A DNA stretch of 64,000 bases from Agelas oroides. Lineage: Eukaryota > Porifera > Demospongiae > Agelasida > Agelasidae. The DNA lies in assembly GCA_949130485.1 (NCBI GenBank), contig OX422184.1, positions 13,738,405-13,802,404 of the forward strand, read 5' to 3'. The notes beneath the pieces are model-generated. The model made no database searches. It had not been told where the DNA came from and saw nothing but the letters and a program-made list of their open reading frames with translations. Of this stretch, positions 1 through 52,122 are shown piece after piece (the stretch's first letter is position 1; each line of letters starts with the position of its first letter). The translations under genes were made by a program, and so were the position numbers.

Positions 1-432
1 GCCAGTGACAATTACACTGCACTTGTACTGCATTCATTCCTAGGCTGCCTGCATAATCCACCTTCCCACATTGAATCACTATAAAACAATAGCTGGAAAG
101 GTGTAAAGGCGTAAACAGCATAGCAAAGTCAATTACCTTATTAATATCTAATGACATAAAAATCTTTCATCAGGTTTGTGCGCACTTTGGTATCATGCGG
201 TACAATGTGCTTCATAGCTATACAGATTATACAACAGTGACAGAAAGGGTACTCAGGCGTATTAAGGGCTGGGTCAAGCTGTTTTGCGGGCTGCCTAAAT
301 TACCCCTGGGGGATGTTATCGCACCATAAACAAGAAGCTGGTTGTATCACAATGCAGGACCTAGGAATGCAATTATGCACCTTGGCTATCACGAGGGACC
401 GGTTTAGGCTTGTACTGGTCCTAACAACAAGA

Positions 433-1112
433 AGTCACAAAAAAGTTTGCCAAATGCAAACAAGCACATGTAGGGATGAAATCCTCAAAAACCAACCAAA
501 CAAGACGGGAACGACACCACAATACTTTTACACCATCCCTACATCTTGTGCCATTTTGCCAAAACTGTGTGTTTGTATTTGTTTTTTAGTTGTGTGTAGA
601 AGAGGGTTGTCTTGTAGATGGAAGGGTGTGGCGTGGGTGTGTTGTGCATAGTGAGTATGTTGTGTTGTTGGTGGTTGCTACTGAGTGTAGCAGGTATGGT
701 CCAAGTTGTGTGTAGAAGGTGTGGAGTGAGTGAGGAGTGGTGAGTGTGTGTGGTATGTTGGAATGTGCATTATGTTGTTAAGTTTTATGCCTGTTTAGCA
801 TGATAGATATGGGTTGTCTTGTATACAGGTGGCTGTGAAGTGAGTAGTGGTAATTTTGTAATGCTTTGTGAAGGATGGGTTATTTTGTGAGATAGTTGAA
901 TGGAGTGAAGTACTATGTTTGTTTGTGGTTGGTGTGGGCTAATAATTACAAATGTAGAGGGTTTTGTGTTGTGTACAGGTGGCAAAATGGCACAAGATGT
1001 AGGGATGGTGTAAAAGTATTGTGGTGTCGTTCCCGTCTTGTTTGGTTGGTTTTTGAGGATTTCATCCCTACATGTGCTTGTTTGCGTTTGGCAAACTTTT
1101 TTGTGACTTGTT
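433..1112. mobile_element. MITE with ~130-bp terminal inverted repeats (CATCCCTACAT family)
   Basis: The left end at 433-560 reappears reverse-complemented at 977-1,112, including the outer AAGTCACAAAAAAGTTTGCC and the inner ACACCATCCCTACATC. The middle is GT-rich and has no coding content. Related elements carrying the same CATCCCTACATC core occur at 48,840-49,390 and about 53,280-53,450. The superfamily was not determined. Confidence 0.8.
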
Positions 1113-1297
1113 TCTGTTGTTTTTTTTTTGTTGTTGTGTAACCACACCCCAAGTGAAATGACTTGTTATGTAGTTTATTGTTGATGTTGATGGATTTCTG
1201 GAGGATGTTAGCTGTTTGCACTTATCCACTTGACAATGGAATCATGGGTGTAACTGTTGTCTAATTGGGTAAGTGCATGTGTGTGTGAGTGGTTGTT

Positions 1298-1564
1298 CTA
1301 AGGCACTGTGGTCTCGGGGTCCTCCCAATAACGGGTATGGGAGGACGCCCTCTTGGTCTCGGGGTCCTCCCAATAACGGGTATGGGAAGATGCCCTTTTC
1401 TTTTCAGGGTTCTTCCAATAACTAGTAAGAGAGTACGCCCGGGAAGATGCCCTTTGTTTTTCCGGGTTCTTCCAGTACTTGTTACGGGACGCTTGCCTTT
1501 TGCTTTCTTTGTTTCGCAGGTAGTTCTGCTTATCCCGCGCCCGTTTCTTGTGGACGTTACGCAT
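1298..1564 (-). CDS. Short repeat-rich ORF (YW-K/E-N/D-PE repeats), probable fragment
   Basis: This 88-aa open frame starts with a basic segment (MRNVHKKRARDKQNYLRNK). It then carries about four imperfect copies of a 15-residue repeat of the form SHTRYWEDPETKRAS, encoded by 45-bp units that are nearly identical at the DNA level in the last two copies. I associate repeats of this style with repetitive proteins in sponge and cnidarian genomes, often near mobile DNA, but no enzymatic domain is visible. It lies wholly inside the left-arm-only block. Whether it is a complete small gene, a first exon or a relic is not decidable here. Confidence 0.35.
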   Translation of the reverse strand: MRNVHKKRARDKQNYLRNKESKRQASRNKYWKNPEKQRASSRAYSLTSYWKNPEKKRASSHTRYWEDPETKRASSHTRYWEDPETTVP

Positions 1565-3452
1565 ACTGCGTTCCTTGTCAAATCCAGCACAAGTACGTCA
1601 ACTGCTGTATGAAAGTAGCAACATATGCAATCGTTTGGGAATCAATCGATCGTCAAGTTCTCTACGGAAGTAGAATAACCGCAGCTGCATGCCAACTTCA
1701 AGTGCTGTAGCTGTTGAACTTCTGTTGACGTAATCGCTATGAATATTCTATTCTAACAAAATGGCGTATAGCAGCAAGCATAAGCGTGGGGTTACCTGAG
1801 AATCGCCGATTAATTCGACTTCTTTCTTTGAGAACGATGAGTGGTGGGTACAATACCCAGTAATTTATGCTGATCTTTCGCGTTTGAATCGTTGTAATAG
1901 CTTCAGCCATTGTCGTGCTATCGTGGTGAGCAAAAGAAGAAGAAGAAGTCAGAAGATAGACGATTTGCTTTTTTAGCGACTTGATGTCAGGTATACTTAG
2001 CGATTCTTTCCAGCAAATTTAACGATCCTGTTGCCCATGGAAGCACTCGATAATGTCTGATATGGCTCATGGAGGCCGTTGACTTATCTAACGCGGACAT
2101 TTCGAGCGTGTCATTTGTGCACTTTGAATGTGGCCGCCATTTTTTTTCGGGGTCATCCCTACATATGGCGTACTACCGTACGCCATGATACTCAGTCTTG
2201 TCCTTACCTCTTTCGACTAAAGCGTGATGTGAGACGCACATCTGTAACACTAGAAGTCATTCTGCCAAGCGCTTCCAGCAATTTTCAAGTGTAGTCATGT
2301 GCTAGCTACCTCCAAATAAGCCGCATAATGGCTGCTTAGCAGCTCTTTTTCCGGAAGTAACTCATGCGAATTTTTTCGAAGAGAACTGGAGTATACTGTT
2401 GGGTTCGATCGAGAAGAAAATCCAATTTTCTTTGATTTCACCATGGGAAAAATTCGTAGCTTACGGCTAAGGGTGGGAAGTGGAAGTGTGAATGCCTGAT
2501 GGGTGTAGCATATTTACAAGTTCAAGTGCTTTGGAAAGAGATATTGACTATTCCCATGGATAAATAGTTAAAGTAGAAACAATAGTGAAATTTTGCTTGC
2601 AAGAATTCCTCATATCGTACCGATATACCCCGAGGGAGGGGCTTGCTATAGCCAAGCTGATTATGGGCATGGCCAGAAATGATGTCACAGTAAACATTAG
2701 CTACACGTAACAACAGTAAACAATTACAGTAAAAAACAAATGGCTAGAAAGGATAACTTAAAGTTGGCACTGGGTGGCTCTTCTTTGCACACATGTGCTT
2801 AGGCAAAGCTCCTCTCAACTTATGGAAACTCCACTCAACACTAAATAACTCAAGTTTCAGTCAGAATGAGTGTTTGTTTGGTGACAACACTGATAGTTGA
2901 AATACGTAAGTATAGTTCAAGATATCCATGGGTTAAATAACACTAGAGAATGGAACTCAGTGGTTAGTGCCTTTTGTTCACAGTACATTATGACCTCGAC
3001 AGAATCTAAAGATCTCAACGCAAACACTCATGCACTCAGTTAGTGTTTCATACAAAATTTGAGATATCCAACATGGACCACATCCTCAACACACAGGTCA
3101 ACTCCTTCCTTTGTGCATGAACACCTCTTTGTGCTCCCACTGACTATAATAAGGTGATGTTGATAAGAGTAGTAGTAATAGCTCTCATCTCAGTACAGCA
3201 AGATAAGAATATTTTCCAATTCACTGTCTCTACTATAGCCTTGCAAATGAGGTCCTTCTCTATCAGTTTTACATTGAACTTTTAATCCTCCTGTAGTGTA
3301 GCAATAATCCGTTTCTCTCTCGGATGGTAAAAAACAAAATTGGGTTACTTGATGAAACCACAAAAGTTGCAAACTGAGTAAAAGATTACATTCCCAAGGT
3401 CAGTTGCGTAAGACTTCAAGAACTCAATAACAGCAAAGACTTACTGTGTAAG

Positions 3453-4111
3453 ACCAGGAGCTTATGAGCGGCAAAGCCGCGAAGGAGCGTGTAACTCTGG
3501 TTTCATTCAAATCCGGATTACTTACGTATTTCCGTTTTGGTGAGGCGCAATGCGTGTCATGCGGTCTATCACCTACTTTAGGTCATGCGGCTACGTGAGA
3601 AAATAAACGATGGCAGAATTGCAAGTACAAGAAATAGTGACTCTATACTCCACAAGACAACAAACAAGAATACTTCTTCAACTTTGAATATCAGTCAGAA
3701 ACACACTGAAAGACACGGAAGCCGCTGTTACTGGCATTTTAAAAAGTCAATCGAGCCATTGGAGATACCTGCTGCAACCGTAGCCTCCGCTTCGAAAACG
3801 AAGCCGCCTCAGAACAGTGAGGGGTCCCGGCATCTTCGAACTTTACGCATTTTTGAGGCAGACCGCTTTTGCCATCACCTGTTCGCTTGCCCATTCCTCC
3901 ACAGCTAGGTCAAAGGGCGTTCTGAGTGAGTGTAAAACATCTCACATTGCTATTACGGAACACGTGGGTTTTTAGGTCGTCACTATGACGCTTGATTTGA
4001 AGAGTGATTTCCTTATTTGGAAGTTCGTTCGCTAATAATGATTTGGATGGCACTCGGTATATGCGGTAGTCACACACTCCTTCGCGGCTTCGCCGCTCAT
4101 AAGCTCCTGGT
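3453..4111. mobile_element. MITE with hairpin-bearing TIRs, left-arm copy
   Basis: The ends are ACCAGGAGCTTATGAGCGGC and its reverse complement, about 38 bp each. Each TIR contains a self-complementary stretch, GCGGC-AA-GCCGC. The flanks suggest a short target duplication of 3-5 bp (AAG or TAAGA). The internal ORF at 3,585-3,908 has no recognisable domain. The same element sits at 20,511-21,149 in the other arm, so the insertion predates the duplication. Confidence 0.75.
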
Positions 4112-4626
4112 AAGACTTCAAGAACTCAAATAGCTGCACTGGGGCAAAGACTTGCTATGTGCACTGGAAGCCCACTGGTCAAGAGATTGGCTTCAAGTGG
4201 TCAATGATCTACACTGTGGTGGTAGTTTGAGGTTTGCGTAACATACCCATGTAAGCACCACCTCTACACTAGACACTCTCACAGTATGCCATAATTTGAC
4301 CATGAAACAATTAACAACAGATTGAAGGGATGTGATCTAACCTAAATTTTAACTTTAGACTAAATACTGCAATCTGATTCGTCACACACAAGTAGTCTAA
4401 GTCACTTATTCCACCAGTAAATTCTTAAGTATAGTTGATTTAACTTGTACCACGCATTAGTGAAAATGCAATTTAATACTTCAACAACTGCAATGTCAGC
4501 AGTTCTCAAACAGTTTGCCTGCACTAAGTGCTAATTGGCTTGTCAACACTTGGATCAGCCAACAACAGTGATCTGATAGATACTGCTGACAATCTCGCTG
4601 GCCAGGTACTGGAACCAGAGCTAGAA

Positions 4627-4764
4627 CTAGGACCATTTCGTATTGGACGACTCTTTGCTGCCACTGCCAGCAGGACTGGGAGGTTTGTGAGTTCTACTGA
4701 GAGCTTGTAGCAATTGTTGCATGATGGCCAGCTTCTGAGAATGACCAGTCCACACAATGTTTCT
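4627..4764 (-). CDS. Putative terminal exon of an unidentified gene, left-arm copy
   Basis: This mirrors 19,858-19,995. After an acceptor reading CTGTAG the frame is open for 45 codons and ends in a stop. The predicted peptide has an amphipathic stretch ([19 protein letters not shown]) and then a Ser/Pro/Gly-rich tail. I do not recognise the protein. The nearest upstream exon-like module, ending at a GTAAGT donor, lies in the adjacent minisatellite. The open frame is preserved in both arms, which gives mild support for coding. Confidence 0.3.
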   Translation of the reverse strand, partial: RNIVWTGHSQKLAIMQQLLQALSRTHKPPSPAGSGSKESSNTKWS

Positions 4765-4840
4765 CTACAGTTTCAATGACAAAAACTCACCAGTATTTGG
4801 TTCACACTTACCAGAAATTTCATCATGTAAAAAATACATT

Positions 4841-7470
4841 TCAGTGTACATTCATGGCCCATGTACGAGGCTAATTTCAGTGTAGGTACATTCATGGCCC
4901 ATGTACGAGGCTAATTTCAGTGTAGGTATATTCATGGCCCATGTATGAGGCTAATTTCAGTATAGGTACATTCATGGTCCATGTACGAGGCTAATTTCAG
5001 TGTAGGTACATTCATGGTCCATGTACGAGGCTAATTTCAGTGTAGGTACATTCATGGCCCATGTAGGAGGCTAATTTCAGTGTAGGTACATTCATGGCCC
5101 ATGTACGAGGCTAATTTCAGTGTAGGTACATTCATGGTCCATGTACGAGGCTAATTTCAGTGTCAATCTCATTCATGGTCCATGTACGAGGCTAATTTCA
5201 GTGTAGGTACATTCATGGTCCATGTACGAGGCTAATTACAGTGTAGGTACATTCATGGTCCATGTACGAGGCTAATTACAGTGCCAATCTCACTAGTATT
5301 TGGTTCATACTTACCACAAATTTCATCATGTAATGAGGCAGTACATTTCAGTGTAGGTACATTCATGTACGAGGCTAATTTCAGTGTAGGTACATTCATG
5401 GCCCATGTACGAGGCTAATTTCAGTGTAGGTACATCCATGGTCCATGTACGAGGCTAATTTCAGTGTAGGTACATTCATGGTCCATGTACGAGGCTAATT
5501 ACAGTGTAGGTACATTCATGGTCCATGTACGAGGCTAATTACAGTGCCAATCTCACTAGTATTTGGTTCATACTTACCACAAATTTCATAATGTAATGAG
5601 GCAGTACATTTCAGTGTAGGTACATTCATGTACGAGGCTAATTTCAGTGTAGGTACATTCATGGCCCATGTACGAGGCTAATTTCAGTGTAGGTACATCC
5701 ATGGTCCATGTACGAGGCTAATTTCAGTGTAGGTACATTCATGGTCCATGTACGAGGATAATTTCAGTGTCAATCTCATTCCTGGCCCATGTACGAGGCT
5801 AATTTCAGTGTAGGTACATTCATGGCCCATGTACGAGGTTAATTTCAGTGTCAATCTCACTAGTATTTGGTTCACACTTACCAGAAATTTCATCATGTAA
5901 TGAAGCAGTACATTTCAGTGAAGGTACATTCATGTACGAGGCTAATTTCAGTGTAGGTACATTCATGGCCCATGTACGAGGCTAATTTCAGTGTAGGTAC
6001 ATTCATGGCCCATGTACGAGGCTAATTTCAGTGTAGGTACATTCATGGCCCATGTACGAGGCTAATTTCAGTGTAGGTACATTCATGGCCCATGTACGAG
6101 GCTAATTTCAGTGTAGGTACATTCATGGTCCATGTACGAGGCTAATTTCAGTGTAGGTACATTCATGGTCCATGTAGGAGGCTAATTTCAGTGTAGGTAC
6201 ATTCATAGTCCATGTACGAGGCTAATTTCAGTGCCAATCTCATTCATGGCCCATGTACGAGGCTAATTTCAGTGTAGGTACATTCCTGGCCCATGTACAT
6301 TCATGGCCCATGTACGAGGCTAATTTCAGTGTCAATCTCACTAGTATTTGGTTCACACTTACCAGAAATTTCATCATGTAATGAGGCAGTACATTTCAGT
6401 GTAGGTACATTCATGGCCCATGTACGAGGCTAATTTCAGTGTAGGTACATTCATGGCCCATGTACAAGGCTAATTTCAGTGTAGGTACATTCATGGCCCA
6501 TGTACGAGGCTAATTTCAGTGTAGGTACATTCATGGCCCATGTACGAGGCTAATTTCAGTGTAGGTACATTCATGGCCCATGTACGAGGCTAATTTCAGT
6601 GTAGGTACATTCATGGTCCATGTACGAGGCTAATTTCAGTGTAGGTACATTCATGGCCCATATACGAGGCTAATTTCAGTGTAGGTATCTCATTCATGGT
6701 CCATGTACGAGGCTAATTTCAGTGCCAATCTCATTCATGGCCCATGTACGAGGCTAATTTAAGTGCCAATCTCATTCATGGCCCATGTACGAGGCTAATT
6801 TCAGTGTAGGTACATTCATGGCCCATGTACGAGGCTAATTTCAGTGTAGGTACATTCATGGTCCATGTACGAGGCTAATTACAGTGTAGGTACATTCATA
6901 GTCCATGTACGAGGCTAATTACAGTGCCAATCTCACTAGTATTTGGTTCACACTTACCAGAAATTTCATCATGTAATGAGGCAGTACATTTCAGTGTAGG
7001 TACATTCATGGTCCATGTACGAGGCTAATTTCAGTGCCAATCTCATTCATGGTCCATGTACGAGGCTAATTTCAGTGTAGGTACATTCATGGCCCATGTA
7101 CGAGGCTAATTTCAGTGTAGGTACATTCATGGTCCATGTACGAGGCTAATTTCAGTGTAGGTACATTCACGGTCCATGTACGAGGCTAATTTCAGTGTAG
7201 GTACATTCATGGTCCATGCACGAGGCTAATTTCAGTGCCAATCTCATTCATGGCCCATGTACGAGGCTAATTTCAGTGTAGGTACATTCATGGCCCATGT
7301 ACGAGGCTAATTTCAGTGTCAATCTCACTAGTATTTGGTTCACACTTACCAGAAATTTCATCATGTAATGAGGCAGTACATTTCAGTGTAGGTACATTCA
7401 TGGCCCATGTACGAGGCTAATTTCAGTGTAGGTACATTCATGGCCCATGTACGAGGCTAATTTCAGTGTC
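4841..7470. repeat. 40-bp minisatellite with interleaved splice-donor module, left arm (~2.6 kb)
   Basis: The unit is about 40 bp, containing GTAGGTACATTCATGG followed by CCATGTACGAGGCTAATTTC, and is repeated more than 50 times. A variant carries CAATCTCATTC in place of GTAGGTACATTC. About every 300-600 bp the array is interrupted by a segment of roughly 57 bp containing ACTTACCAGAAATTTCATCA. On the minus strand this is a canonical 5' splice site (TTTCTG/GTAAGT). Each 40-bp unit is itself an imperfect hairpin (GTACATtCATGG paired with CCATGtAC). The partner array in the right arm is about half as long. Confidence 0.97.
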
Positions 7471-8240
7471 AATCTGATTCTCAGGTGCTCTGAATCTGTC
7501 TTGCAACTACTCTAGCAAGCAATAGAAACTTCAAGGCATAAAATGATCAACAGAAAAGAGAGACTCATTATAGTCATTGCTAGGTGGTTTGGTTGCTATC
7601 CATAAAACAAGAAATGTCAGCCTAAAAGGTCAGAGTACATTCGTTATATGGACTCTAAATCCGAATCATATGTCAGGTACAGTATCACACCAACAGACAC
7701 TCATTCACTCCCACATGCTTAAACATGTGTTGTGTAATGGAGTGTGATGGGTGTTGCTAGGGTAACAGGCACACGAAACCACCCCACAGGGAAGCACCTT
7801 TAAGCTTGTAGCCACTCTTTGTATACAGCAAACATATATCCCTCCAGGATACCAGAATCACCATAGACCCCCTTCATAATTAGAATCAATCTTTAACTGT
7901 TGTTGTGCTACTGAATACTATACGTAGAGGAAAGAGCAGCTTGTGCAGCAGCAACTTTAAGAATTTACAGTCAGTGGCTATACTCCAGGCATTACTTTCC
8001 CACTGCAATTGCAGCCACTTTTGTTGCTTAAAAATGTTGCTATAGTTATGTCACATTGGATTCACATACACATTTCTTGACATTTACCAGTAACTCTTTA
8101 GGTATAATCTTTTTTTGTGTACTGCAGTATAATTAACTTAAACCAAGTCACAAAAGAAAATATGCACAGTAGACAGTACGTATATACTGAATTGAACATC
8201 ATAGTAGGTGCAATAGTATTTATATCTATGACATACTTAC

Positions 8241-8500
8241 CTTTGGTGGTGGTCGTATCTGTGCATGCTGGGGTTATATACCCTTCCCACATCCACTACC
8301 ACATCGCAGCTCTTCAACCGTTCGGGGTCCCGAGTGCGTATTATCTCGGCATTGTTGTACTCTGGGAGCAGTTTGAGCATGTAGCAAGCAAGGGCCTCAT
8401 CACAGTGAAATTTACCATTGTGGGTGCCGATGGTTTTGGTGACACAAGGCCTCTTTGGTTCTGAGTCCATCCTGTACCTCCGCAATACTGTGGAAACCAT
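8241..8500 (-). CDS. MYG1: MYG1 exonuclease, exon 1 of the left-arm copy (partial in window)
   Basis: This mirrors MYG1 exon 1 at 16,858-17,117. The predicted peptide is identical. It includes the motif [12 protein letters not shown] and ends at the DHH motif, followed by an intact GTAAGT donor (ACTTAC/CTTTGG on the plus strand). The one coding difference I saw is a synonymous GAC/GAT at the Asp following the second Met. The start may be at 8,500 ([10 protein letters not shown] extension) or 8,470 (MDSEPK). Exon 2 would lie about 700 bp outside the window start if the palindrome continues. I cannot say whether this copy is a complete gene or a truncated one. Confidence 0.85.
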
Positions 8501-8788
8501 GCAGTAATCACAACATAATAACACACTGCATTATGAACTAGATACTTGTTGCTCTGTAGTTTGCACCTAATGTATGGTAACTTTGTGTTGAGCTGACTTT
8601 ATTTTGTCATGTAACCTTTGAATGAAATGTAGAGGGGTTGGTTGACCAATGCATGTGACAACACTTGAGGTGGGATGTGGGAGATCAATAGTAGTGGCAA
8701 CACACTCTCTATATACTGGCCTAGTACTATACTTTTCTACAAGGCCAAGATACACATTGAAAGTAGACGGCCCCACACTTCTTTTCAT

Positions 8789-9463
8789 GAGGGATACTAG
8801 AAAACGCGGAACAACGGAATAAAAATTCCAAAAATAAATATGTGCACCGTATGCAAGACCAGTCCCATATCCAGAGGTTAGACCACGTAGATGCTGTTTT
8901 GAGCGACAGTTTCTTGCTGGCGAGGATTCACTAGTAAACTAGGCTTCATTATTTCATATTGAGGTAAGTCCTCAAGCATTTAGGATGACAGTGTAATGTT
9001 AATTTATCTCATGCATATCTAGCTAGCTACATAGCTGCCTGTGCTCTAAGATTAGTACTTTTGTTCTATTAAGGCCCTTGACAATTGCTGCTTAGCCAGA
9101 TTAACAGTGGTGGATAGATTGGTGGCATCCTGTCACTACATGCAGAGCCCGAGGACAAGGGTGGTTATTGTAAATCATAAACCCCAGCATTATGTATTAT
9201 CTTCTCCAACCTGATTGGTCCATGTTGTTATCAGTAAACGTACAAGGTAGTTTACACTGTAAACAAAGTAGCTTATAGGAAACATCATTTTACAAATTCC
9301 TGTGGTACATGAAACAGAATCTGCAACTTCCTAGTTGTCAGTATTTTGGAAAACAATACCTACCCACACCATAGAAACTGTAGAAGGGTAAACGTGGAGA
9401 GTATTAACTGATACCATATTTATTCAAATTATTATTTTTATTATTATTATTATTATTATTATC
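8789..9463. repeat. Dispersed repeats upstream of left MYG1, plus ATT microsatellite
   Basis: 8,789-9,170 matches one end of the element at 30,325-31,008 (GGGATACTRGAAAAC start, then GGCGAGGATTCACTAGTAAAC). 9,125-9,360 matches, in inverse orientation, 50,280-50,560 (shared GTAAACTACCTTG and GAAACAGAAT segments). 9,425-9,463 is a (TTA)n run. The mirror copies are at about 15,897-16,571. No gene was seen between here and about 11,700. Confidence 0.7.
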
Positions 9464-9473
9464 GCTTTACAGT

Positions 9474-11730
9474 TCAGATGGGGGCGTGGAATGGATGACA
9501 TAGAACTGAAAGTGAGAGAGTGAACTGATGGTTCATCAGACTTAGGTATAAGCAAACATTAGGTGGATACACCGAGTAGAGAGAAGTTGGTGGAGTGTGA
9601 TACAAAACATTTAAATAAAACACATGATCCAATCCCAGCACAAGAAATTCAATTCTGAGATTTATGGGTGGATCCAACTTAGCGCAAGCTGCCACTAATT
9701 AACTTTCAGTTGTCCCAGTCAGATTAAGTGCGGTCAAGAACAATTTCCAGGAGAAAGAGCTATCCCTTAAATGTTCTACTTTGGCGTTTCATGGTTTCAT
9801 GGGTTTGAAAGACTTTTGTTGCTACAGTTGCTACTGTCTATCAAGAACCTCATGCACTTCTGGACAAGACCGAGAACTGAAGGCCAGGAACTCCGGCTTT
9901 GCATTTCTGTTTTAACCCCCCCCAAAAAATTTTTAATCCATTGCAACACATGATCCAATCTAATGCAAGAAATTCAATTCCTGGGATGGGTGGTTAATGC
10001 ATGCCCACTCCAATGATTTAATTTGAATAAATCCTGTAGTCACTTTACCTCCAATATCTAGGCCATACCTAACCAATTTTATGTTGCTTGGATCAACTGA
10101 CACAAATTTTGGCAGATATTACTCAAAAATACGACACATGGATGAATCTGAACACTGAATTTGTCAGAATGGCATCACCTTCTGCAAGGATCATTATAAT
10201 GTACTTACCAAATAGGGTCTGAAGATCAATCACGATTGTCGACTGTGGATGGGATGACCCTTTTGGAAAGCTGTGTATGTTTTGTAGTGATACTGCCACC
10301 AAGGTGACTGTTATTAACCATTTTTACGCCTACCTACCAACCCTCCTTGAAACATTATCTGGCCCATGCAATGTAAAATATGCTTTGATTTAGCATACAG
10401 TGCAAGAAATCTCTGTTGTACCCCTCAGCTGTGTTTTATGTCATGCATGATGACTTGGTTTCTTCTGATCTGCAACACTTGCAAGACAGGCTGCTCACAG
10501 AAAGGACAGCAGTCTAAGCTGCCTCACAAGGCAAATAGCTACATATAGGATAGATGCTGGTATTATGAGACATCTAATCTTAATTACTACTCATTAGTGT
10601 AATGTAGTTTTTCAGCCCCATTGAAACATTTCTCCTGAGAATGTACCACTTATAGAATAAAAGTCGCATTTTTCCTCCTAGGCAGTGGTTCTAAAAGTAA
10701 GAGCCTATGAAAATCACTCTTGCATGTATTATGAGTCGACTGCTGGTATTATGAGTCACCAGGTGCTTTGTTGATTGAAACATTTTCAGTTGGAGTTCAA
10801 ACTGTATCCTAGCATTTTATAACCTCTCTCTGTGCTGATAGTAATTTTTTGTCACTAGAGCACCTTCCATTCTAACATGGTATTAATGTTACCATACACT
10901 GTTCAGGGTTCATAGTTGGGATCCCTAAAATCATCAAACCTTGAAAAATACTACAGAGTAAACACATTTTGATGGGAAAGTTGCTAGATAATGGCACCTG
11001 TATGTACTCTAAATGGACATCGAGTTTGGAAATTTTTGGAGTAAAAGTTACATGTGAACCCTCTGACTCATAATACCCTATTCCATATGTTGCACACCAC
11101 GTTGTAGTAGTAAAACACGTCTAGTACTGTGACAATACAATACAGCACAAATACACTAGCATCTGCTACACTGACACACTGACATGCTTAGTTAATACCT
11201 GGATGCGTTATTAATCGGCGAAAAAAGAGCATGGTTGGCTGTCATCCAGAGGAGGTCCGACACGCTTACGGAGCTGCACGGAACTCCGTGTCACGTATGG
11301 TGAGGGAACATTGCACGATCAACGTGGCGACGGCTCTCGAAGTCCGTTTTTGTACCTGTCCTATCGCGGGAACTAGAACATGTAGGAGCGCCATACTCGG
11401 TTTGCTGATAGTTGAGATGGGACCCTACTGCTCCTGTGTATCTGTGGAGCTGAGGACTGATAACTTCGCAGCAAGAGCGAGTTAAACCCGGAGCGTGATA
11501 AACATGACCTGGAGGACGGTACTTTGAGCAGTTGTAGCTCCATAACGCAACGGGCTATGAAGCTCGGACTTGCGTTGTATGAAAGTAGAAACACGGCTAA
11601 TTCCAGTGATATGCATTTGTGGGGGGTGAAACCCCCATTGGTTTTGGAGCTACAGAGCTTTGAAAGTTGGCAAGATTTGGGAAATGTGAAAATAGGTTCC
11701 GATTTAGGAGCTCATATCTTCTGGTCAGAT
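9474..11730. other. Noncoding inner part of left arm
   Basis: Short ORFs here (for example 11,231-11,485 and 11,524-11,763) are mirrored in the right arm simply because the DNA is duplicated. None shows a recognisable domain. I see no gene in this stretch. Confidence 0.5.
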
Positions 11731-11734
11731 TATG

Positions 11735-12360
11735 CTATCGTGACAGAACTTACACCAAAATGAAGCCCTTTCCATGTACTTTGTGATGATCTTCACATTG
11801 TTAGTGACACCCTGTGCAGATTTGGAGTAATCCAGCTTTGAAGTTGACTATAATTGTGAAAGACGTAAATCTGGGTAAAATTCAATCACCCATATCTCCT
11901 CAACAATGAAGGCAGTGGTGATGGGACTTACACCAAAATGATGCACATTCTATATGCTTTCTGATGATATCCATATTGCTGTGACATCCCGTATAAATTT
12001 GGAGCTATATGGCTTTGAAGTCAAGTATGTTTGTGCAATATCAAAATATGGGTAAAATAGGAGCCCATATCTTCCAGTCAGATTATCTGCTGTTGTGACA
12101 GAACTTGCACCAAAATGGAGCCCTTTCCATGTACTTTGAGATGATCTTCACATTGTTGGTGACACCCCATACAGATATGGCTTGGAGGTTGACTGTATTG
12201 TAAATCTGGGTAAAATTCAATCACCCGTATCTCCTCAACAATGAAGACAGTGGTGATGGGACTTGTACCAAAATGATGCACATTCTGTGTACTTTCTGAC
12301 AATATCAACATTGTTGGTGACACCCCATGAAGGTTTAGAGCTTTGAGGTCAACCATGTTA
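11735..12360. repeat. Degenerate ~165-177 bp tandem repeat flanking the palindrome centre (left)
   Basis: Four diverged copies begin near 11,745, 11,922, 12,095 and 12,260. Each starts with a CTTRYACCAAAATG motif, followed by CATGTACTTTSTGATGAT-like text and GTGACACCC. Odd and even copies resemble each other more closely, giving a higher-order period of about 345 bp. Inverse copies of the same repeat occupy about 12,890-13,570 on the other side of the centre. Confidence 0.8.
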
Positions 12361-12428
12361 GTGCAGTATCTGAATTTGTTTTTGAAACTTTGAACTATCC
12401 AATATCTTTGAGAACAGTGTATTGACGG

Positions 12429-12586
12429 TAGCCTTGTTCCCAGGCTCTCCCCGCTAAGGAGGGGGAGAGCCTGGCAGTGTTGTTTTAGTTAACTGTCTAC
12501 CTCGCGTCTACCCTTGACGTCACACACGTGATAAAATGTACCAGGTTCTCCCCCTCCTTAGCGGGGAGAGCCTGGGAATGAGGCTA
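12429..12586. mobile_element. Small MITE (TAGCCT...AGGCTA) inside the palindrome spacer
   Basis: The ends read TAGCCTTGTTCCCAGGCTCT and the matching reverse complement. The long inner stems contain CTCCCCGCTAAGGAGG. Termini of the same family occur at 49,819-49,869, 60,751-60,894 and 62,497-63,442. It lies near the centre of symmetry and has no partner in either arm. Confidence 0.75.
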
Positions 12587-13570: not shown

Positions 13571-16500
13571 TCATCACAAAGTACATGGAAAGGGCTTCAT
13601 TTTGGTGTAAGTTCTGTCACGATAGCATAATCTGACCAGAAGATATGAGCTCCTAAATCGGAACCTATTTTCACATTTCCCAAATCTTGCCAACTTTCAA
13701 AGCTCTGTAGCTCCAAAACCAATGGGGGTTTCACCCCCCACAAATGCATATCACTGGAATTAGCCGTGTTTCTACTTTCATACAACGCAAGTCCGAGCTT
13801 CATAGCCCGTTGCGTTATGGAGCTACGACTGCTCAAAGTACCGTCCTCCAGGTCATGTTTATCACGCTCCGGGTTTAACTCGCTCTTGCTGCGAAGTTAT
13901 CAGTCCTCAGCTCCACAGATACACAGGAGCAGTAGGGTCCCATCTCAACTATCAGCAAACCGAGTATGGCGCTCCTACATGTTCTAGTTCCCGCGATAGG
14001 ACAGGTACAAAAACGGACTTCGAGAGCCGTCGCCACGTTGATCGTGCAATGTTCCCTCACCATACGTGACACGGAGTTCCGTGCAGCTCCGTAAGCGTGT
14101 CGGACCTCCTCTGGATGACAGCCAACCATGCTCTTTTTTCGCCGATTAATAACGCATCCAGGTATTAACTAAGCATGTCAGTGTGTCAGTGTAGCAGATG
14201 CTAGTGTATTTGTGCTGTATTGTATTGTCACAGTACTAGACGTGTTTTACTACTACAACGTGGTGTGCAACATATGGAATAGGGTATTATGAGTCAGAGG
14301 GTTCACATGTAACTTTTACTCCAAAAATTTCCAAACTCGATGTCCATTTAGAGTACATACAGGTGCCATTATCTAGCAACTTTCCCATCAAAATGTGTTT
14401 ACTCTGTAGTATTTTTCAAGGTTTGATGATTTTAGGGATCCCAACTATGAACCCTGAACAGTGTATGGTAACATTAATACCATGTTAGAATGGAAGGTGC
14501 TCTAGTGACAAAAAATTACTATCAGCACAGAGAGAGGTTATAAAATGCTAGGATACAGTTTGAACTCCAACTGAAAATGTTTCAATCAACAAAGCACCTG
14601 GTGACTCATAATACCAGCAGTCGACTCATAATACATGCAAGAGTGATTTTCATAGGCTCTTACTTTTAGAACCACTGCCTAGGAGGAAAAATACGACTTT
14701 TATTCTATAAGTGGTACATTCTCAGGAGAAATGTTTCAATGGGGCTGAAAAACTACATTACACTAATGAGTAGTAATTAAGATTAGATGTCTCATAATAC
14801 CAGCATCTACCCTATATGTAGCTATTTGCCTTGTGAGGCAGCTTAGACTGCTGTCCTTTCTGTGAGCAGCCTGTCTTGCAAGTGTTGCAGATCAGAAGAA
14901 ACCAAGTCATCATGCATGACATAAAACACAGCTGAGGGGTACAACAGAGATTTCTTGCACTGTACGCTAAATCAAAGCATATTTTACATTGCATGGGCCA
15001 GATAATGTTTCAAGGAGGGTTGGTAGGTAGGCGTAAAAATGGTTAATAACAGTCACCTTGGTGGCAGTATCACTACAAAACATACACAGCTTTCCAAAAG
15101 GGTCATCCCATCCACAGTCGACAATCGTGATTGATCTTCAGACCCTATTTGGTAAGTACATTATAATGATCCTTGCAGAAGGTGATGCCATTCTGACAAA
15201 TTCAGTGTTCAGATTCATCCATGTGTCGTATTTTTGAGTAATATCTGCCAAAATTTGTGTCAGTTGATCCAAGCAACATAAAATTGGTTAGGTATAGCCT
15301 AGATATTGGAGGTAAAGTGACTACAGGATTTATTCAAATTAAATCATTGGAGTGGGCATGCATTAACCACCCATCCCAGGAATTGAATTTCTTGCATTAG
15401 ATTGGATCATGTGTTGCAATGGATTAAAAATTTTTGGGGGGGTTAAAACAGAAATGCAAAGCCGGAGTTCCTGGCCTTCAGTTCTCGGTCTTGTCCAGAA
15501 GTGCATGAGGTTCTTGATAGACAGTAGCAACTGTAGCAACAAAAGTCTTTCAAACCCATGAAACCATGAAACGCCAAAGTAGAACATTTAAGGGATAGCT
15601 CTTTCTCCTGGAAATTGTTCTTGACCGCACTTAATCTGACTGGGACAACTGAAAGTTAATTAGTGGCAGCTTGCGCTAAGTTGGATCCACCCATAAATCT
15701 CAGAATTGAATTTCTTGTGCTGGGATTGGATCATGTGTTTTATTTAAATGTTCTGTATCACACTCCACCAACTTCTCTCTACTCGGTGTATCCACCTAAT
15801 GTTTGCTTATACCTAAGTCTGACGAACCCTCAGTTCGCTCTCTCACTTTCAGTTCTATGTCATCCATTCCACGCCCCCATCTGAACTGTAAAGCGATAAT
15901 AATAATAATAATAATGATAATAATAATAATTTGAATAAATATGGTATCAGTTAATACTCTCCACGTTTACCCTTCTACAGTTTCTATGGTGTGGGTAGGT
16001 ATTGTTTTCCAAAATACTGACAACTAGGAAGTTGCAGATTCTGTTTCATGTACCACAGGAATTTGTAAAATGATGTTTCCTATAAGCTACTTTGTTTACA
16101 GTGTAAACTACCTTGTACGTTTACTGATAACAACATGGACCAATCAGGTTGGAGAAGATAATACATAATGCTGGGGTTTATGATTTACAATAACCACCCT
16201 TGTCCTCGGGCTCTGCATGTAGTGACAGGATGCCACCAATCTATCCACCACTGTTAATCTGGCTAAGCAGCAATTGTCAAGGGCCTTAATAGAACAAAAG
16301 TACTAATCTTAGAGCACAGGCAGCTATGTAGCTAGCTAGATATGCATGAGATAAATTAACATTACACTGTTGTCCTAAAAGCTTGAGGACTTATCTCGAT
16401 ATGAAATAATGAAGCCTAGTTTACTAGTGAATCCTCGCCAGCAAGAAACTGTCGCTCAAAACAGCATCTACGTGGTCTAACCTCTGGATATGGGACTGGT

Positions 16501-16857
16501 CTTGCATACGGTGCACATATTTATTTTTGGAATTTTTATTCCGTTGTTCCGCGTTTTCTAGTATCCCTCATGAAAAGAAGTGTGGGGCCGTCTACTTTCA
16601 ATGTGTATCTTGGCCTTGTAGAAAAGTATAGTACTAGGCCAGTATATAGAGAGTGTGTTGCCACTACTATTGATCTCCCACATCCCACCTCAAGTGTTGT
16701 CACATGCATTGGTCAACCAACCCCTCTACATTTCATTCAAAGGTTACATGACAAAATAAAGTCAGCTCAACACAAAGTTACCATACATTAGGTGCAAACT
16801 ACAGAGCAACAAGTATCTAGTTCATAATGCAGTGTGTTATTATGTTGTGATTACTGC

Positions 16858-19800
16858 ATGGTTTCCACAGTATTGCGGAGGTACAGGATGGATTCAGAAC
16901 CAAAGAGGCCTTGTGTCACCAAAACCATCGGCACCCACAATGGTAAATTTCACTGTGATGAGGCCCTTGCTTGCTACATGCTCAAACTGCTCCCAGAGTA
17001 CAACAATGCCGAGATAATACGCACTCGGGACCCCGAACGGTTGAAGAGCTGCGATGTGGTAGTGGATGTGGGAAGGGTATATAACCCCAGCATGCACAGA
17101 TACGACCACCACCAAAGGTAAGTATGTCATAGATATAAATAATATTGCACCTACTATGATGTTCAATTCAGTATATACGTACTGTCTACTGTGCATATTT
17201 TCTTTTGTGACTTGGTTTAAGTTAATTATACTGCAGTACACAAAAAAAGATTATACCTAAAGAGTTACTGGTAAATGTCAAGAAATGTGTATGTGAATCC
17301 AATGTGACATAACTATAGCAACATTTTTAAGCAACAAAAGTGGCTGCAATTGCAGTGGGAAAGTAATGCCTGGAGTATAGCCACTGACTGTAAATTCTTA
17401 AAGTTGCTACTGCACAAGCTGCTCTTTCCTCTACGTATAGTATTCAGTAGCACAACAACAGTTAAAGATTGATTCTAATTATGAAGGGGGTCTATGATGA
17501 TTCTGGTATCCTGGAGGGATATATGTTTGCTGTATACAAAGAGTGGCTACAAGCTTAACCCTTTAGGGCCCATTGCGCCAAAAGTCGCACTTTTGACTTC
17601 GTACTTTTTTGTGGCTTCTCACTTTGAAACGAAGTTCGCCCACGAACTAGTAGTCTTGTTTGTAGTTTGTTAGTGTTTCCACTCTCTAGGACTGTAGTAA
17701 TAAGGGCGGGCAACGGTTCTGAGCATAGCAGCGAGCAGCTGTTCAGACGGAGACCACCAGCTAGCGATAATATCGATCGAACGGTACAAGTAGGCAGGCG
17801 TATTTTGCCTTCGTTTTATGTTTACCTGGAGTAACGCCTCCCGCTGTGAGCTACTATGGACCTCTCCTCTCCAGCAGCAAAGCAGGTGAAAGCATCCAAC
17901 CAGAGAACAGACAGCTTTACACAAGCCTTCGGCTAGTACTCCCGCCGCGTGGCTACCTCAGTGTGGCCCCACCCCTTGAATCCCACCCCTTCCTGCCTAG
18001 GATAACAATCATTACTAATCATTACTAGTAACTATAGGCGCATACCCCCGAGGTATAGAGAAGCCGTAAACGTTGCCGTAGGGCAGGATGGGAATTGCTA
18101 CGCACAGTGGAAGCAGTTATATCGGCAGCCATACCACGTGAAGAAAATTTCCAGATAAATCTGGGCCCTAAAGAGTTAAAGGTGCTTCCCTGTGGGGTGG
18201 TTTCGTGTGCCTGTTACCCTAGCAACACCCATCACACTCCATTACACAACACATGTTTAAGCATGTGGGAGTGAATGAGTGTCTGTTGGTGTGATACTGT
18301 ACCTGACATATGATTCGGATTTAGAGTCCATATAACGAATGTACTCTGACCTTTTAGGCTGACATTTCTTGTTTTATGGATAGCAACCAAACCACCTAGC
18401 AATGACTATAATGAGTCTCTCTTTTCTGTTGATCATTTTATGCCTTGAAGTTTCTATTGCTTGCTAGAGTAGTTACAAGACAGATTCAGAGCACCTGAGA
18501 ATCAGATTGACACTGAAATTAGCCTCGTACATGGGCCATGAATGTACCTACACTGAAATTAGCCTCGTACATGGGCCATGAATGTACCTACACTGAAATG
18601 TACTGCCTCATTACATGATGAAATTTCTGGTAAGTGTGAACCAAATACTAGTGAGATTGACACTGAAATTAGCCTCGTACATGGGCCATGAATGTACCTA
18701 CACTGAAATTAGCCTCGTACATGGGCCATGAATGAGATTGGCACTGAAATTAGCCTCGTGCATGGACCATGAATGTACCTACACTGAAATTAGCCTCGTA
18801 CATGGACCGTGAATGTACCTACACTGAAATTAGCCTCGTACATGGACCATGAATGTACCTACACTGAAATTAGCCTCGTACATGGGCCATGAATGTACCT
18901 ACACTGAAATTAGCCTCGTACATGGACCATGAATGAGATTGGCACTGAAATTAGCCTCGTACATGGACCATGAATGTACCTACACTGAAATGTACTGCCT
19001 CATTACATGATGAAATTTCTGGTAAGTGTGAACCAAATACTAGTGAGATTGGCACTGTAATTAGCCTTGTACATGGACTATGAATGTACCTACACTGTAA
19101 TTAGCCTCGTACATGGACCATGAATGTACCTACACTGAAATTAGCCTCGTACATGGGCCATGAATGTACCTACACTGAAATTAGCCTCGTACATGGGCCA
19201 TGAATGAGATTGGCACTTAAATTAGCCTCGTACATGGGCCATGAATGAGATTGGCACTGAAATTAGCCTCGTACATGGACCATGAATGAGATACCTACAC
19301 TGAAATTAGCCTCGTATATGGGCCATGAATGTACCTACACTGAAATTAGCCTCGTACATGGACCATGAATGTACCTACACTGAAATTAGCCTCGTACATG
19401 GGCCATGAATGTACCTACACTGAAATTAGCCTCTTACATGGGCCATGAATATACCTACACTGAAATTAGCCTCGTACATGGGCCATGAATGTACCTACAC
19501 TGAAATTAGCCTCTTACATGGGCCATGAATGAGATTGGCACTGAAATTAGCCTCGTACATGGGCCATGAATGAGATTGGCACTGAAATTAGCCTCGTACA
19601 TGGACCGTGAATGTACCTACACTGAAATTAGCCTCGTACATGGACCATGAATGTACCTACACTGAAATTAGCCTCGTACATGGACCATGAATGTATCTAC
19701 ACTGAAATTAGCCTCATACATGGGCCATGAATGTACCTACACTGAAATTAGCCTCGTACATGGGCCATGAATGTACACTGAAATGTATTTTTTACATGAT

Positions 19801-22800
19801 GAAATTTCTGGTAAGTGTAAACCAAATACTAGTGAGTTTTTGTCATTGAAACTGTAGAGAAACATTGTGTGGACTGGTCATTCTCAGAAGCTGGCCATCC
19901 TGCAACAATTGCTACAAGCTCTCAGTAGAACTCACAAACCTCCCAGTCCTGCTGGCAGTGGCAGCAAAGAGTCGTCCAATACGAAATGGTCCTAGTTCTA
20001 GCTCTGGTTCTAGTACCTGGCCAGCGAGATTGTCAGCAGCATCTATCAGATCACTGTTGTTGGTTGATCCAAGTGTTGACAAGCCAATTAGCACTTAGTG
20101 CAAGCAAACTGTTTGAGAACTGCTGATATTACAGTTGTTGAAGTATTAAATTGCATTTTCACTTATGAGTGGTACAAGTTAAATCAACTATACTTAAGAA
20201 TTTACTGGTGGAATAAGTGACTTAGACTACTTGTGTGTGACGAATCAGATTGCAGTATTTAGTCTAAAGTTAAAATTTAGATTAGATCACATCCCTTCAA
20301 TCTGTTGTGAATTGTTTCATGGTCAAATTATGGCATACTGTGAGAGTGTCTAGTGTAGAGGTGTTGCTTACATGGGTATGTTACGCAAACCTCAAACTAC
20401 CACCACAGTGTAGATCATTGACCACTTGAAGCCAATCTCTTGACCAGTGGGCTTCCAGTGCACATAGTAAGTCTTTGCCCCAGTGCAGCTATTTGAGTTC
20501 TTGAAGTCTTACCAGGAGCTTATGAGCGGCGAAGCCGCGAAGGAGTGTGTGACTACCGCATACACCGAGTGCCATCCAAATCATTATTAGCGAAAGAACT
20601 TCCAAATAAGGAAATCACTCTTCAAATCAAGCGTCATAGTGACGACCTAAAAACCCACGTGTTCCGTAATAGCGATGTGAGATGTTTTACACTCACTCAG
20701 AACGCCCTTTGACCTAGCCGTGGAGGAATGGGCAAGCGAACAGGTGACGGCGAAAGCGGAAGGCCTCAAAAATGCGAAGATGCCGGGACCCCTCACTGTT
20801 CTGAGGCGGCTCCGTTTTCGAAGCGGAGGCTACGGTTGCAGCAGGTATCTCCAATGGCTCGATTGACTTTTTAAAATGCCAGTAACAGCGGCTTACGTGT
20901 CTTTCAGTGTGTTTCTGCCTGATATTCAAAGTTGAAGAAGTACTCTTGTTCGTTGTCTTGTGGAGTCTAGAGTCACTATTTCTTGTACTTGCAATTCTGC
21001 CATCGTTTATTTTCTCACGTAGCCGCATGACCTAAAGTAGGTGATAGACCGCATGACACGCATTGCGCCTCACCAAAACGGAAATACGTAAGTAATCCGG
21101 ATTTGAATGACACGCTCCTTCGCGGCTTTGCCGCTCATAAGCTCCTGGTCTTACACAGTAAGTCTTTGCTGTTATTGAGTTCTTGAAGTCTTACGCAACT
21201 GACCTTGGGAATGTAATATTTTACTCAGTTTGTAACTTTTTTGGTTTCATCAAGTAGCCCAATTTTGTTTATTACCATCCGAGAGAGAAACGGATTATTG
21301 CTACACTACAGGAGGATTAAAAGTTCAATGTAAAACTGATAGAGAAGGACCTCATTTGCAAGGCTATAGTAGAGACAGTGAATTGGGAAATATTCTTATC
21401 TTGCTGTACTGAGATGAGAGCTATTACTACTGCTCTTATCAACATCACCTTAGTGTAGTCAGTGGGAGCACAAAGAGGTGTTCATGCACAAATGTTTGAG
21501 TTGGATATCGATGAAAGGAGGGGAGAAGGAGGAGGAAGGAGTTGACCTGTGTGTTGAGGATGTGGTCCATGTTGGATATCTCAAATTTTGTAAGAAACAC
21601 TAACTGAGTGCATGAGTGTTTGCGTTGAGATCTTTAGATTCTGTCGAGGTCATAATGTACTGTGAACAAAAGGCACTAACCACTGAGTTCCATTCTCTAG
21701 TGTTATTTAACCCATGGATATCTTGAACTATACTTACGTATTTCAACTATCAGTGTTGTCACCAAACAAACACTCATTCTGACTGAAACTTGAGTTATTT
21801 AGTGTTGAGTGGAGTTTCCATAAGTTGAGAGGAGCTTTGCCTAAGCACATGTGTGCAAAGAAGAGCCACCCAGTGCCAACTTTAAGTTATCCTTTCTAGC
21901 CATTTGTTTTTTACAGTAATTGTTTACTGTTGTTACGTGTAGCTAATGTTTACTGTGACATCATTTCTGGCCATGCCCATAATCAGCTTGGCTATACCAA
22001 GCCCCTCCCTCGGGGTATATCGGTACGATATGAGGAATTCTTGCAAGCAAAATTTCACTATTGTTTCTACTTTAACTATTTATCCATGGGAATAGTCGAT
22101 ATCTCTTTCCAAAGCACTTGAACTTGTAAATATGCTACACCCATCAGGCATTCACACTTCCACTTCGCACCCTTAGCCGTAAGCTACGAACTTTTCCCAC
22201 AGTGAAATCAAAGAAAATTGGATTTTCTTCTCAATCGAACCCAACAGTATACTCCAGTTCTCTTCAAAAAAATTCGCATGAGTTACTTCCGGAAAAAGAG
22301 CTGATAAGCAGCCATTATGCGGCTTATTTTGAGGTACACTGTAGCTAGCACGTGACTACACTTGAAAATTGCTGGAAGCGCTTGGCAGAATGACTTCTAG
22401 TGTTACAGATGTGCCTCTCACATCACGCTTTAGTCGAAAGAGGTAAGGACAAGACTGAGTATTGTTGTTAGGACCAGTACAAGCCTAAACCGGTCCCTCG
22501 TGATAGCCAAGGTGCATAATTGCATTCCTAGGTCCTGCATTGTGATACAACCAGCTTCTTGTTTAGGGTGCGATAACATCCCCCAGGGGTAATTTAGGCA
22601 GCCCGCAAAACAGCTTGACCCAGCCCTTAATATACGCCTGAGTACCCTTTCTGTCACTGTTGTATAATCTGTATAGCTATGAAGCACATTGTACCCCATG
22701 ATACCAAAGTGCGCACAAACCTGATGAAAGATTTTTATGTCATTAGATATTAATAAGGTAATTGACTTTGCTATGCTGTTTACGCCTTTACACCTTTCCA

Positions 22801-25800
22801 GCTATTGTTTTATAGTGATTCAATGTGGGAAGGTGGATTATGCAGGCAGCCTAGGAATGAATGCAGTACAAGTGCAGTGTAATTGTCACTGGCTAATTTA
22901 GTATTGCTATTTGCCACTCTAGTAATGAATGCAACTAGTGAGCAGTGTAAGTGATATATGGCATGCACACTGCAGTGGATTCTTTAATTTATCAATTCAA
23001 TTATTACCTACGCTTGTTTAATCCACTTGGCCTCCCTTACTGCTTCATGTATGGACAATCAATTGACCATATCCCCTCAATAAAACCAGGCCTAGATGTT
23101 CTATACACATAGTCACCCACTGTGCAGGACACATTTCAGCCAATACCAGACCTCATCAGCTGCACGACAACTTTCGAAACAACTACCGTAGATCAGGAAA
23201 ATTTCGCTGTTAAGAAAATTTCGCTGTTAAGAAAATTTCGCGGTTGAGACCAACCGCAAAAATTTAACACGCAAATAAAAACATATGTGGCGGTGATTAA
23301 CGAATAAGAGTGCGCACACACGTCCACACCTCGAGCTCCCGTCCGATCAACGACCACTCCTGACAGCCATAGCATTACAGCCAGCGATACGTATGTTTTT
23401 ATTCGCGTGTTAAATTTTTGCAGCAATACCTGGCTCTCCCGATACCTGGTAGTTGACTAAAATTAATGCTAAGAATGCTTCAGGCACTCGTCCATATTGT
23501 AACCGTCAACAGTTTTTACGCAAATTATTTATAATGTGAAAATTTCCCGATCTACGGTATAACAATTATACTTCACAGCTCCCTCGTACTTTAATTATCA
23601 TTTTACAGGACATTCAATGATACGATGTGGAATTTAACGGATGGAAGAAGACGTTGGAAAACAAGATTAAGCAGTGCAGGTCTTATCTACTTTCATTTTG
23701 GTCATCGAATCATAGCCAAAATAACTGGTAAGTCATCCATTTCTTAATTAACTGTATAGCCGGAAATTTTCGCGAGGTCCAAATTTTAGTTAGCCCGGTG
23801 ACAATAAAGGGGCATGGTCAATAGCTCATGGCTAAATGCAAAAATTAAAACGGTGGAAATTTCTTCTGGAGGGGAAACAGGATTTTCGTGCAAATTTGGA
23901 CCAGCGAAGATTTCCTGCAATAATGTACTTATTCTGATGTCGTCCAAATTTGACTACTGTGAGTGAGCCTCACAGTAGTAACTCAAGTGTGAATGAGCTT
24001 CACACTCGTAATGTAACTGTGAGTGAGCCTCACAGTAGTAACTCAAGTGTGAATGAGCTTCACACTCGTAATGTAACTGTGAGTGAGCCTCACAGTAGTA
24101 ACTCAAGTGTGAGTGAGCCTCACACTCGTAACGTAACTGTGAGTGAACCTCACAGTAGTAACTCAAGTGTGAATGAGCCTCACACTCGTAATGTAACGGT
24201 GAGTGAGCCTCACAGTAGTAACTCAAGTGTGAGTGAGCCTCACACTCGTAACGTAACTGTGAGTGAACCTCACAGTAGTAACTCAAGTGTGAATGAGCTT
24301 CACACTCGTAATGTAACTGTGAGTGAGCCTCACAGTAGTAACTCAAGTGTGAGTGAGCCTCACACTCGTAACGTAACTGTGAGTGAACCTCACAGTAGTA
24401 ACTCAAGTGTGAATGAGCCTCACACTCGTAATGTAACGGTGAGTGAGCCTCACAGTAGTAACTCAAGTGTGAGTGAGCCTCACACTCGTAATGTAACTGT
24501 GAGTGAACCTCACAGTAGTAACTCAAGTGTGAGTGAGCCTCACACTCGTAATGTAACTGTGAGTGAACCTCACAGTAGTAACTCAAGTGTGAATGAGCTT
24601 CACACTCCTAATGTAACTGTGAGTGAGCCTCACAGTAGTAACTCAAGTGTGAGTGAGCCTCACACTCCTAATGTTTAATGTGAATGAGCTTCACACTGTG
24701 AGTGAGCCTCGCAGATAACACAAAGCAGCCCCAACCCAGCCCTAGTCCTAGCTCAGCCTTATGGAACCGACTACACCTCTAGGCGTACCGTTACTATAGT
24801 AAAGCACACGCCATAACTAGCGTAACAATGCCGTTACTAGGATAGGTACGCCGTTACTAAGAGAAGCATGCTCCCATTTAAAGCCCGTCGACCGAGTATC
24901 ACACACAAACAACTAATAATACTCACCGTGAGATAGTCGCCGCAGTACAGACCCGAATAATCTTCGGTACAGGAGCGCCTACCAGCGAAGAACAAGCCTT
25001 CCAGACGTTCCACCAAGACGACACGATAGCGAGCCAGAATCCCGTACCGTACGTTAACCGTTCGCCCATCCCCCTAGTTATTATAAGTTAATATGATAAC
25101 TCCACCCATTGAGCCCCACCCCCAATTTGTTTAGTAATTTCAATATTTATAGCACTGTGAATGCCCATAGCACTATGTGCCAACCAAAAGCTGGGCTCCT
25201 CAAAAGCAAACCTTAGGCGGGGAGTGGTCCTGCCCTTTCTGTAGTAGGCCACGGGTTGGAGTTCAAAGGGACCGAAACCCGTGGTCATGCGAGGACCAGA
25301 AAGGGTACTCCCCTGAAGACCAGTATTTTTTGAGCATATCTCCCAAAAACAGTAACTATTAAACCGCCCCATCCATTTGAGCCATAAATGCCCCACCAAT
25401 TTGTCATAAATGCCACACCCATTTAAGCCATAAATGCCCCACCCATTAACGCCATAAAATGCCCCATCCATTTAATTAAGCCATAAATGCCCCATCCCCA
25501 TCTCCCTTTATGTTTTAACTTCACACTTTATGTATGTGTGAAATTTTGAACATCGATGTGCCAGTGGTGTTGGTGCTCCCCCACTCGACACACAACTTCT
25601 GCCGCACATCAATGAAAGTAGGTTCTGCATAAATAGAAATGGTGGGGCGAATGGGTTGAAACATGGGGGGCTGTGCACAACTCAGTGCAGTTAAGGCAGG
25701 CTCAACTATTTTTCTAGTTCAAAAAGTGTGCATGCATGGTGTTTTGAAACCATTCTGATTGCTAACAGCTACATCTTTGGGTCTAGTAAAGGTCCTATCT

Positions 25801-48817: not shown

Positions 48818-48839
48818 GTAACAGTTAATTATATATATA

Positions 48840-49390: not shown

Positions 49391-49423
49391 TCTGTACTTT
49401 TTTGATGTTAATCTCAATTACAG

Positions 49424-52116: not shown

Positions 52117-52122
52117 AATAAA
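52117..52122 (+). terminator. AATAAA polyadenylation signal after intron-retained stop
   Basis: AATAAA lies 66 bp after the TAA reached when exon 4 reads through its donor. A five-TM isoform ending in FPTEQPKY is therefore possible. Confidence 0.35.

Follow-up and report, generated by a model that had tools for sequence, protein, structure and literature searches.

Foldback transposons at the axes of a palindrome array in the sponge Agelas oroides are candidate seeds of inverted duplication

Does the large inverted repeat in a 64,000-nucleotide stretch of the Agelas oroides genome (here called the window, C2:13,738,405-13,802,404) represent a real palindrome or a head-to-head joining of two haplotypes, and, if it is real, how might it have arisen? 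A sequence-only reading had described an imperfect palindrome of more than 22 kb, occupying positions 1 to 22,893 around a spacer of about 1 kb. Self-BLAST recovered the inverted repeat as three pairs, each with an E-value of 0: 7800-12057 with 13310-17558 (98.5% over 4,259 bp), 2188-6114 with 18510-22462 (91.8%, spanning a 40-bp tandem array of unequal copy number), and 1-430 with 22462-22893 (99.1%). The spacer of about 1 kb was also confirmed, at 12,058-13,309. The proposed size and ends were wrong: window base 1 merely cuts the left arm, and the apparent end at 22,893 is an effect of the window edge, as 20 kb of added left flank keep pairing with window 22.5-32.7 kb at 90-97%. When the genome (259.3 Mb in 141 contigs) was searched with the right arm, left-arm counterparts reached C2:13,643,612, which pairs with window position 63,329. 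On our own assignment of minus-strand pieces to the left arm from their order, this arm extends about 95 kb (94.8 kb) beyond the left edge of the window, and the whole palindrome, designated P, spans about 158 kb. Judged by its sequence, the inverted repeat is a true feature of the assembly and forms the middle of this larger palindrome.

The inner left arm (P-left) occupies positions 1-11246 on the minus strand and continues beyond the window, while the right arm (P-right) occupies 14114-63329 on the plus strand; of the 50,020 positions from 13,310 to 63,329, 38,075 have a left counterpart, with the intervals copied by hand from the searches. Several discrete differences separate the two arms. 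The segment 431-2187 of the left arm is missing from the right arm, the 40-bp tandem array is longer in the left arm (4838-7480) than in the right (18510-19784), and a 60-bp tandem array at 23956-24695 of the right arm is skipped by the P-left homology chain. A 5-kb retroelement-like insertion on the minus strand (39,706-44,792), with a weak reverse-transcriptase match below the Pfam cut-off, was found in P-right only among the arms matched and has related copies on contigs C1 and C6, and the left arm is interrupted by 47 kb opposite window position 50 kb. The copy number of the 40-bp minisatellite varies in other palindromes too. Like ampliconic palindromes, P consists of long inverted arms on either side of a short unique spacer, but it does not keep an arm identity above 99% along the arm: the arms are 0.2-1.0% apart at 13.8-17.4 kb and 0.7-9.2% apart further out, tandem arrays included, with outer P-left matches at 86-97%. 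No Rfam family matched at gathering scores.

The spacer coincides with the loop of a foldback element of 2.87 kb (11247-14113, termini CAGAGGAGG...CCTCCTCTG) that sits at the palindrome axis. Its inverted ends are about 0.8 kb long and contain sub-repeats: the left terminal inverted repeat lies at 11247-12057 on the minus strand, with sub-repeats of about 177 bp, and the right one at 13310-14113 on the plus strand. The 1.25-kb loop between them (12058-13309) includes a self-inverted stretch at 12428-12587. The element at the P axis has no target-site duplication; its flanks are instead inverted copies of each other, with GGCTGTCATC preceding the element and GATGACAGCC following it.

Genome searches placed P within a larger arrangement. 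At least 11 copies of the arm lie between 12.790 and 14.303 Mb of C2, which is one contig of 26 Mb; since a genome search with a DNA query scores only its best 40 or so candidates, the number of arms may well exceed 11 and a missing match is weak evidence. Along this 1.5-Mb array the arms follow one another as C-left, C-right, D-left, D-right (short), A-left, A-right, P-left, P-right (the window), B-left, B-right and E-left, in strictly alternating orientation (- + - + - + - + - + -), and they form at least five head-to-head palindromes, P, A, B, C and D. The tail spacer beyond A-right was found again, at 99-100%, beyond C-right and B-right, and the array therefore reads as the blocks C-D, A-P and B-E. 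Tandem arrays with a 79-bp unit lie just outside the inner right arms of C and D, and others with a 94-bp unit lie within the KDZ segment discussed below (L021, L026).

Such an array might in principle be an assembly artefact, whether a head-to-head haplotype misjoin at a hairpin-forming element or a false haplotype duplication within the array. The axis is an inverted repeat, the sort of place where an assembly graph may turn back, and the arms near it are about 0.5-2% apart, an allele-like distance. Furthermore, the palindromes of the first rotifer assembly were mostly not found again: one was re-found in a later assembly, in a report whose authors note a low N50 (PMC7749112), and none is described from a sister species (PMC5916493). 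Caution is therefore due. Nevertheless, at least 11 arm copies exceed what two haplotypes could yield, four palindromes built like P lie on the same contig, and all ten element-arm junctions among the scored matches fall into five inverted pairs. When 8,298 sites were compared across the six arms of P, A and B, 118 were informative, and 46 of these split A-right, B-right and P-left from A-left, B-left and P-right, 44 of them inside the element. The asymmetric centre is therefore old and common to the three palindromes, which independent misjoins of two haplotypes would not predict. A second exon of a seven-transmembrane (7TM) receptor-like gene, at 81-82%, likewise marks the left arms only (C, D, A, P and E; five of six left arms against none of five right arms, p 0.013, or none of four without the short D-right, p 0.024), and the 55 fetched loci (294,585 bases, some overlapping) contain no N. 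Strict alternation would arise by chance once in 1024, provided only that orientations were independent, and block duplication breaks that independence. Taken together, these observations support a real palindrome over the haplotype misjoin that had been offered as its alternative, and we regard an artefact as quite unlikely, with partial false duplication (A versus P, C versus D) conceivable within a genuine array.

All five axes share the same outer flanks, and over 1 kb these are inverted copies at 99.7% identity in P, 99.6% in B, 99.9% in C and 99.3% in D; in A the identity is 99.2-99.5% in two pieces, with 681 of 1,000 bp aligned. In P, A and B a single element occupies the axis without a target duplication, and the inverted flanks start exactly at both of its termini. 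This one-element axis is found in three of the five palindromes only, because C and D carry two foldback elements with a KDZ element in between. Dispersed copies of the foldback element were sampled at ten loci (L027, L028 and L047-L054), with both ends present in nine and one end at L052. Eight of the nine have 9-bp target duplications (seven exact and one with a single mismatch), one has none, and in all nine the flanks are unrelated, with an inverted-flank identity of 0.19-0.34. With its long sub-repeated inverted repeats, its loop, its dispersed copies and its target duplications of fixed length, the element belongs with the Foldback-type DNA transposons, and its family is common (185 first-look candidates, of which the best 40 were scored). 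The dispersed copy without a target duplication, which is complete (L050, C16:490,164-492,805), is a possible second rearrangement point.

The KDZ element in palindrome C is 13.5 kb long (L018-L019, C2:12,852,004-12,865,521) and has an inverted copy in D (L023-L025). It is flanked by a 9-bp duplication, ACGTAGACC in C and the reverse complement in D. The D copy matches the KDZ transposase family PF18758 (E 2.8e-9) as well as PF18718 (E 1.5e-6), and the element also matches the CxC5 companion domain and DUF3987. Its ends match each other at 89.4% over 142 bp, and a KDZ transposase inside an element with matching ends places it in the KDZ family. Target duplications described for this family measure 8 bp in Zisupton and in a Dileera-lineage element and 7 bp in Kyakuja (PMC12730594); with 9 bp instead of 7 or 8, the element is therefore a KDZ variant. 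It shares with the Kyakuja-Dileera-Zisupton elements of that account the PF18758 transposase and the CxC5 companion domain, and differs from them in its 9-bp duplications and foldback derivatives (PMC12730594). The ends of the foldback element match those of the KDZ element at 86.8% over 463 bp and 88.7% over 142 bp, so that, by sequence, the foldback element looks like a non-autonomous derivative of it. The Tm1 foldback family of root-knot nematodes also has long composite terminal inverted repeats with tandem sub-repeats and target duplications that are mostly 9 bp, but it is titled a Mutator/Foldback family, whereas the matching full element here has a KDZ transposase (PMC3169594). The D copy of the KDZ element contains a 2.8-kb internal duplication; fragments of the element occur at 89-92% at C2:9.10 Mb, with more distant matches elsewhere.

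E is the right-most arm found and the sole one found without a head-to-head partner. Its match to the other arms, at 92-93%, runs as far as L056:666 and stops with ...GGCTGTCATC at the base that precedes the element in the palindromes; about 540 bp of the arm are absent from E near this junction. Past the junction, E continues element-free into different sequence with a frame resembling trypsin (PF00089, E 1.8e-6); neither the window nor any of the 55 further loci fetched contains this sequence. Most simply, E is read as a candidate empty site that preserves the state before the element arrived. Alternatively, E could be a palindrome that has lost its element and its right arm. E lies 4.55% from the ten others, which among themselves differ by 0.43% in the same columns; this divergence fits an unpaired arm, but an older arm as well.

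Considering these data, we propose, with moderate confidence, that the window holds the centre of a real palindrome of about 158 kb produced by foldback-primed inverted duplication, followed by block duplication and then by exchange among the arms. The palindrome, the array, the elements at the axes, the lack of a target duplication in P, A and B and the coinciding break of E can all be read from the sequence; from them we infer the following order of events. First, a KDZ-family foldback element would have entered next to the arm, at a position that locus E would still show unoccupied. A break at or near the far end of the element would then have allowed its long inverted repeats to fold back and prime outward synthesis, with the outcome that an inverted copy of the left flank replaced the unique right flank. 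An inverted copy in place of the unique flank would account for the order arm, element, arm without a target duplication. Blocks of two palindromes each, linked by a tail spacer, would next have been duplicated, and conversion and other exchange, within and between palindromes, would hold most inner arms about 98-99.8% alike. In yeast, inverted repeats close to a break are reported to drive inverted duplication, and dicentric intermediates are described in that work (PMC10622511, PMC10164571). An interstitial palindrome needs an extra rejoining step, of which no sign was seen here, and this counts against the proposal. The hairpin-shaped transposon at the axes probably started the mirroring.

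The palindromes may instead have formed independently of the element, for example through template switching at a fork, the foldback element having arrived later or merely adjoined the switch point. The C and D axes, with two elements and a KDZ element each, show that an axis can take several elements, and the foldback family is common; both points favour this route. Against this, the flanks in P, A and B begin precisely where the element ends, on both sides and with no target duplication, and the unpaired arm E breaks off at the same base; we therefore consider an unrelated origin unlikely. A giant mobile element with the arms as its long inverted ends would also account for several near-identical copies accompanied by transposases. 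However, every arm copy found among the best candidates falls within a single 1.5-Mb stretch of C2, and the target duplications that we see are those of the small foldback element and the 13.5-kb KDZ element, which leaves this explanation very little room.

Once formed, the arms would be expected either to decay or to be kept alike, and the sequence-only reading had named gene conversion as the means by which large palindromes stay similar. Two-against-four splits among the arms of P, A and B point in this direction, as 26 of 55 unite the arms of one palindrome where an even distribution would give 11. In the ten-arm distances, computed with tandem arrays and the element left out, native left-right pairs averaged 0.595% at 14,118-17,558, compared with 1.008% over all 120 possible matchings (3 of 120 as low, native included), and 1.340% compared with 1.712% at 19,860-23,950 (1 of 120 as low), ranks that are owed in part to the separation of C/D from P/A/B. 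With only P, A and B considered, the native pairing came second of six in the first block and first of six in the second; in C and D it ranked first of two in both. Could recent duplication alone, without gene conversion, make the arms this alike? The C/D versus P/A/B split resembles a duplication order, and crossed pairs are closest in some blocks: in the inner block a crossed A/B pairing (0.589%) beats the native one (0.707%), and only P, one of the five palindromes, has arms that are mutually nearest. In the outer block, however, the arms of A, B and D (three of five) are mutual nearest neighbours though each palindrome was already two-armed, and within-palindrome splits are over-represented, so we judge duplication alone to be improbable. 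Gene conversion between arms is likely on this sequence evidence; the claim holds as an average over the palindromes but not for each single one, C-left for instance lying 3% from C-right in the outer block.

The opposite orientation of the P centre relative to A and B was considered as proof of crossover between arms and rejected, because P and A face each other as mirror partners across a tail spacer and mirror duplication already predicts it; the inversion of the KDZ segment in C relative to D is likewise expected. One flip or inversion, or one indel, may nevertheless have occurred, since the polarity of the outer arms, marked by the second 7TM exon in left arms, conflicts with that of the centres.

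The large palindromes that we found in the literature lie mostly on sex chromosomes, and the Attacin genes of Drosophila subobscura lie on an autosome. These form a head-to-head inverted duplicate for which concerted evolution and spacer reversal are described, but as one small pair, whereas the array here extends over more than a megabase and has an element at the axes of its palindromes (PMC7584159). Human Y palindrome P6 shares with P its large inverted arms and arm-to-arm conversion, and inversions within it are known; its reported arm similarity exceeds 99.9%, whereas the arms here are less alike, and unevenly so, with large indels, and at least five palindromes stand in an array with foldback transposons at the axes (PMC3723533). 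The willow W chromosome is described with consecutive palindromes, several arms with gene conversion and a treatment of LTR retrotransposons in the palindrome, but with two palindromes over 200 kb of a sex chromosome rather than five over 1.5 Mb, and its summary mentions no foldback element (PMC7023750). In the springtail Folsomia candida, invertebrate gene blocks are likewise found in inverted duplication; the account gives 11 such blocks with wide synonymous divergence, for which its authors see no explanation in concerted evolution, in contrast to the inner arms here, which are 0.2-3% apart (PMC5490193). Exchange between arms would easily erase the origin of a palindrome. At the present locus, one contig unites a candidate seed, a candidate empty site, the product of duplication and a diverged unpaired arm, so that both how a palindrome is born and what exchange between its arms does become directly testable. 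Our broader proposal is that a KDZ-family foldback element acts as a palindrome seed, its insertion leading to fold-back copying of at least 50 kb of flanking genes and then to a self-homogenising megabase array with about ten copies each of receptor-like and metallo-beta-lactamase-like genes; we offer it tentatively, as possible rather than probable. If true, it would connect a class of transposons with the origin of an inverted, gene-rich array.

Both genes are carried by the arms. The metallo-beta-lactamase-like region (55613-57088, plus strand) follows a cysteine-rich N-terminal part and matches PF00753 at E 1.2e-4 and 22.6 bits, just below the cut-off of 22.7. It has ten copies in the array at 97-100%, of which seven are full-length without a stop, the other three comprising one with a stop, one short copy and one split copy; elsewhere, partial matches occur on contig C22. 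The 7TM receptor-like gene lies on the plus strand from 44958 to 52538, with predicted exons at 44958-45227, 50782-51039, 51563-52048 and 52197-52538 that hold one, one, three and two hydrophobic segments, respectively; its matches to the Frizzled region (E 0.009 and 0.022) both fall below the cut-off. Its exon at 51563 has ten array copies at 90-100%, three of them with a stop. Pooled pN/pS is 0.37 for the metallo-beta-lactamase-like gene and 0.41 for this 7TM exon (45 pairs from ten copies each); the pairs are not independent, and we therefore claim only weak constraint on the two sequences. Seven of the ten copies of the 7TM exon, from several palindromes, show zero synonymous differences, and exchange or recent duplication therefore links the palindromes too. 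An extra copy of the 50782 exon lies at 48520-48825, with 81% DNA identity over 193 bp, and the two are perhaps alternative exons.
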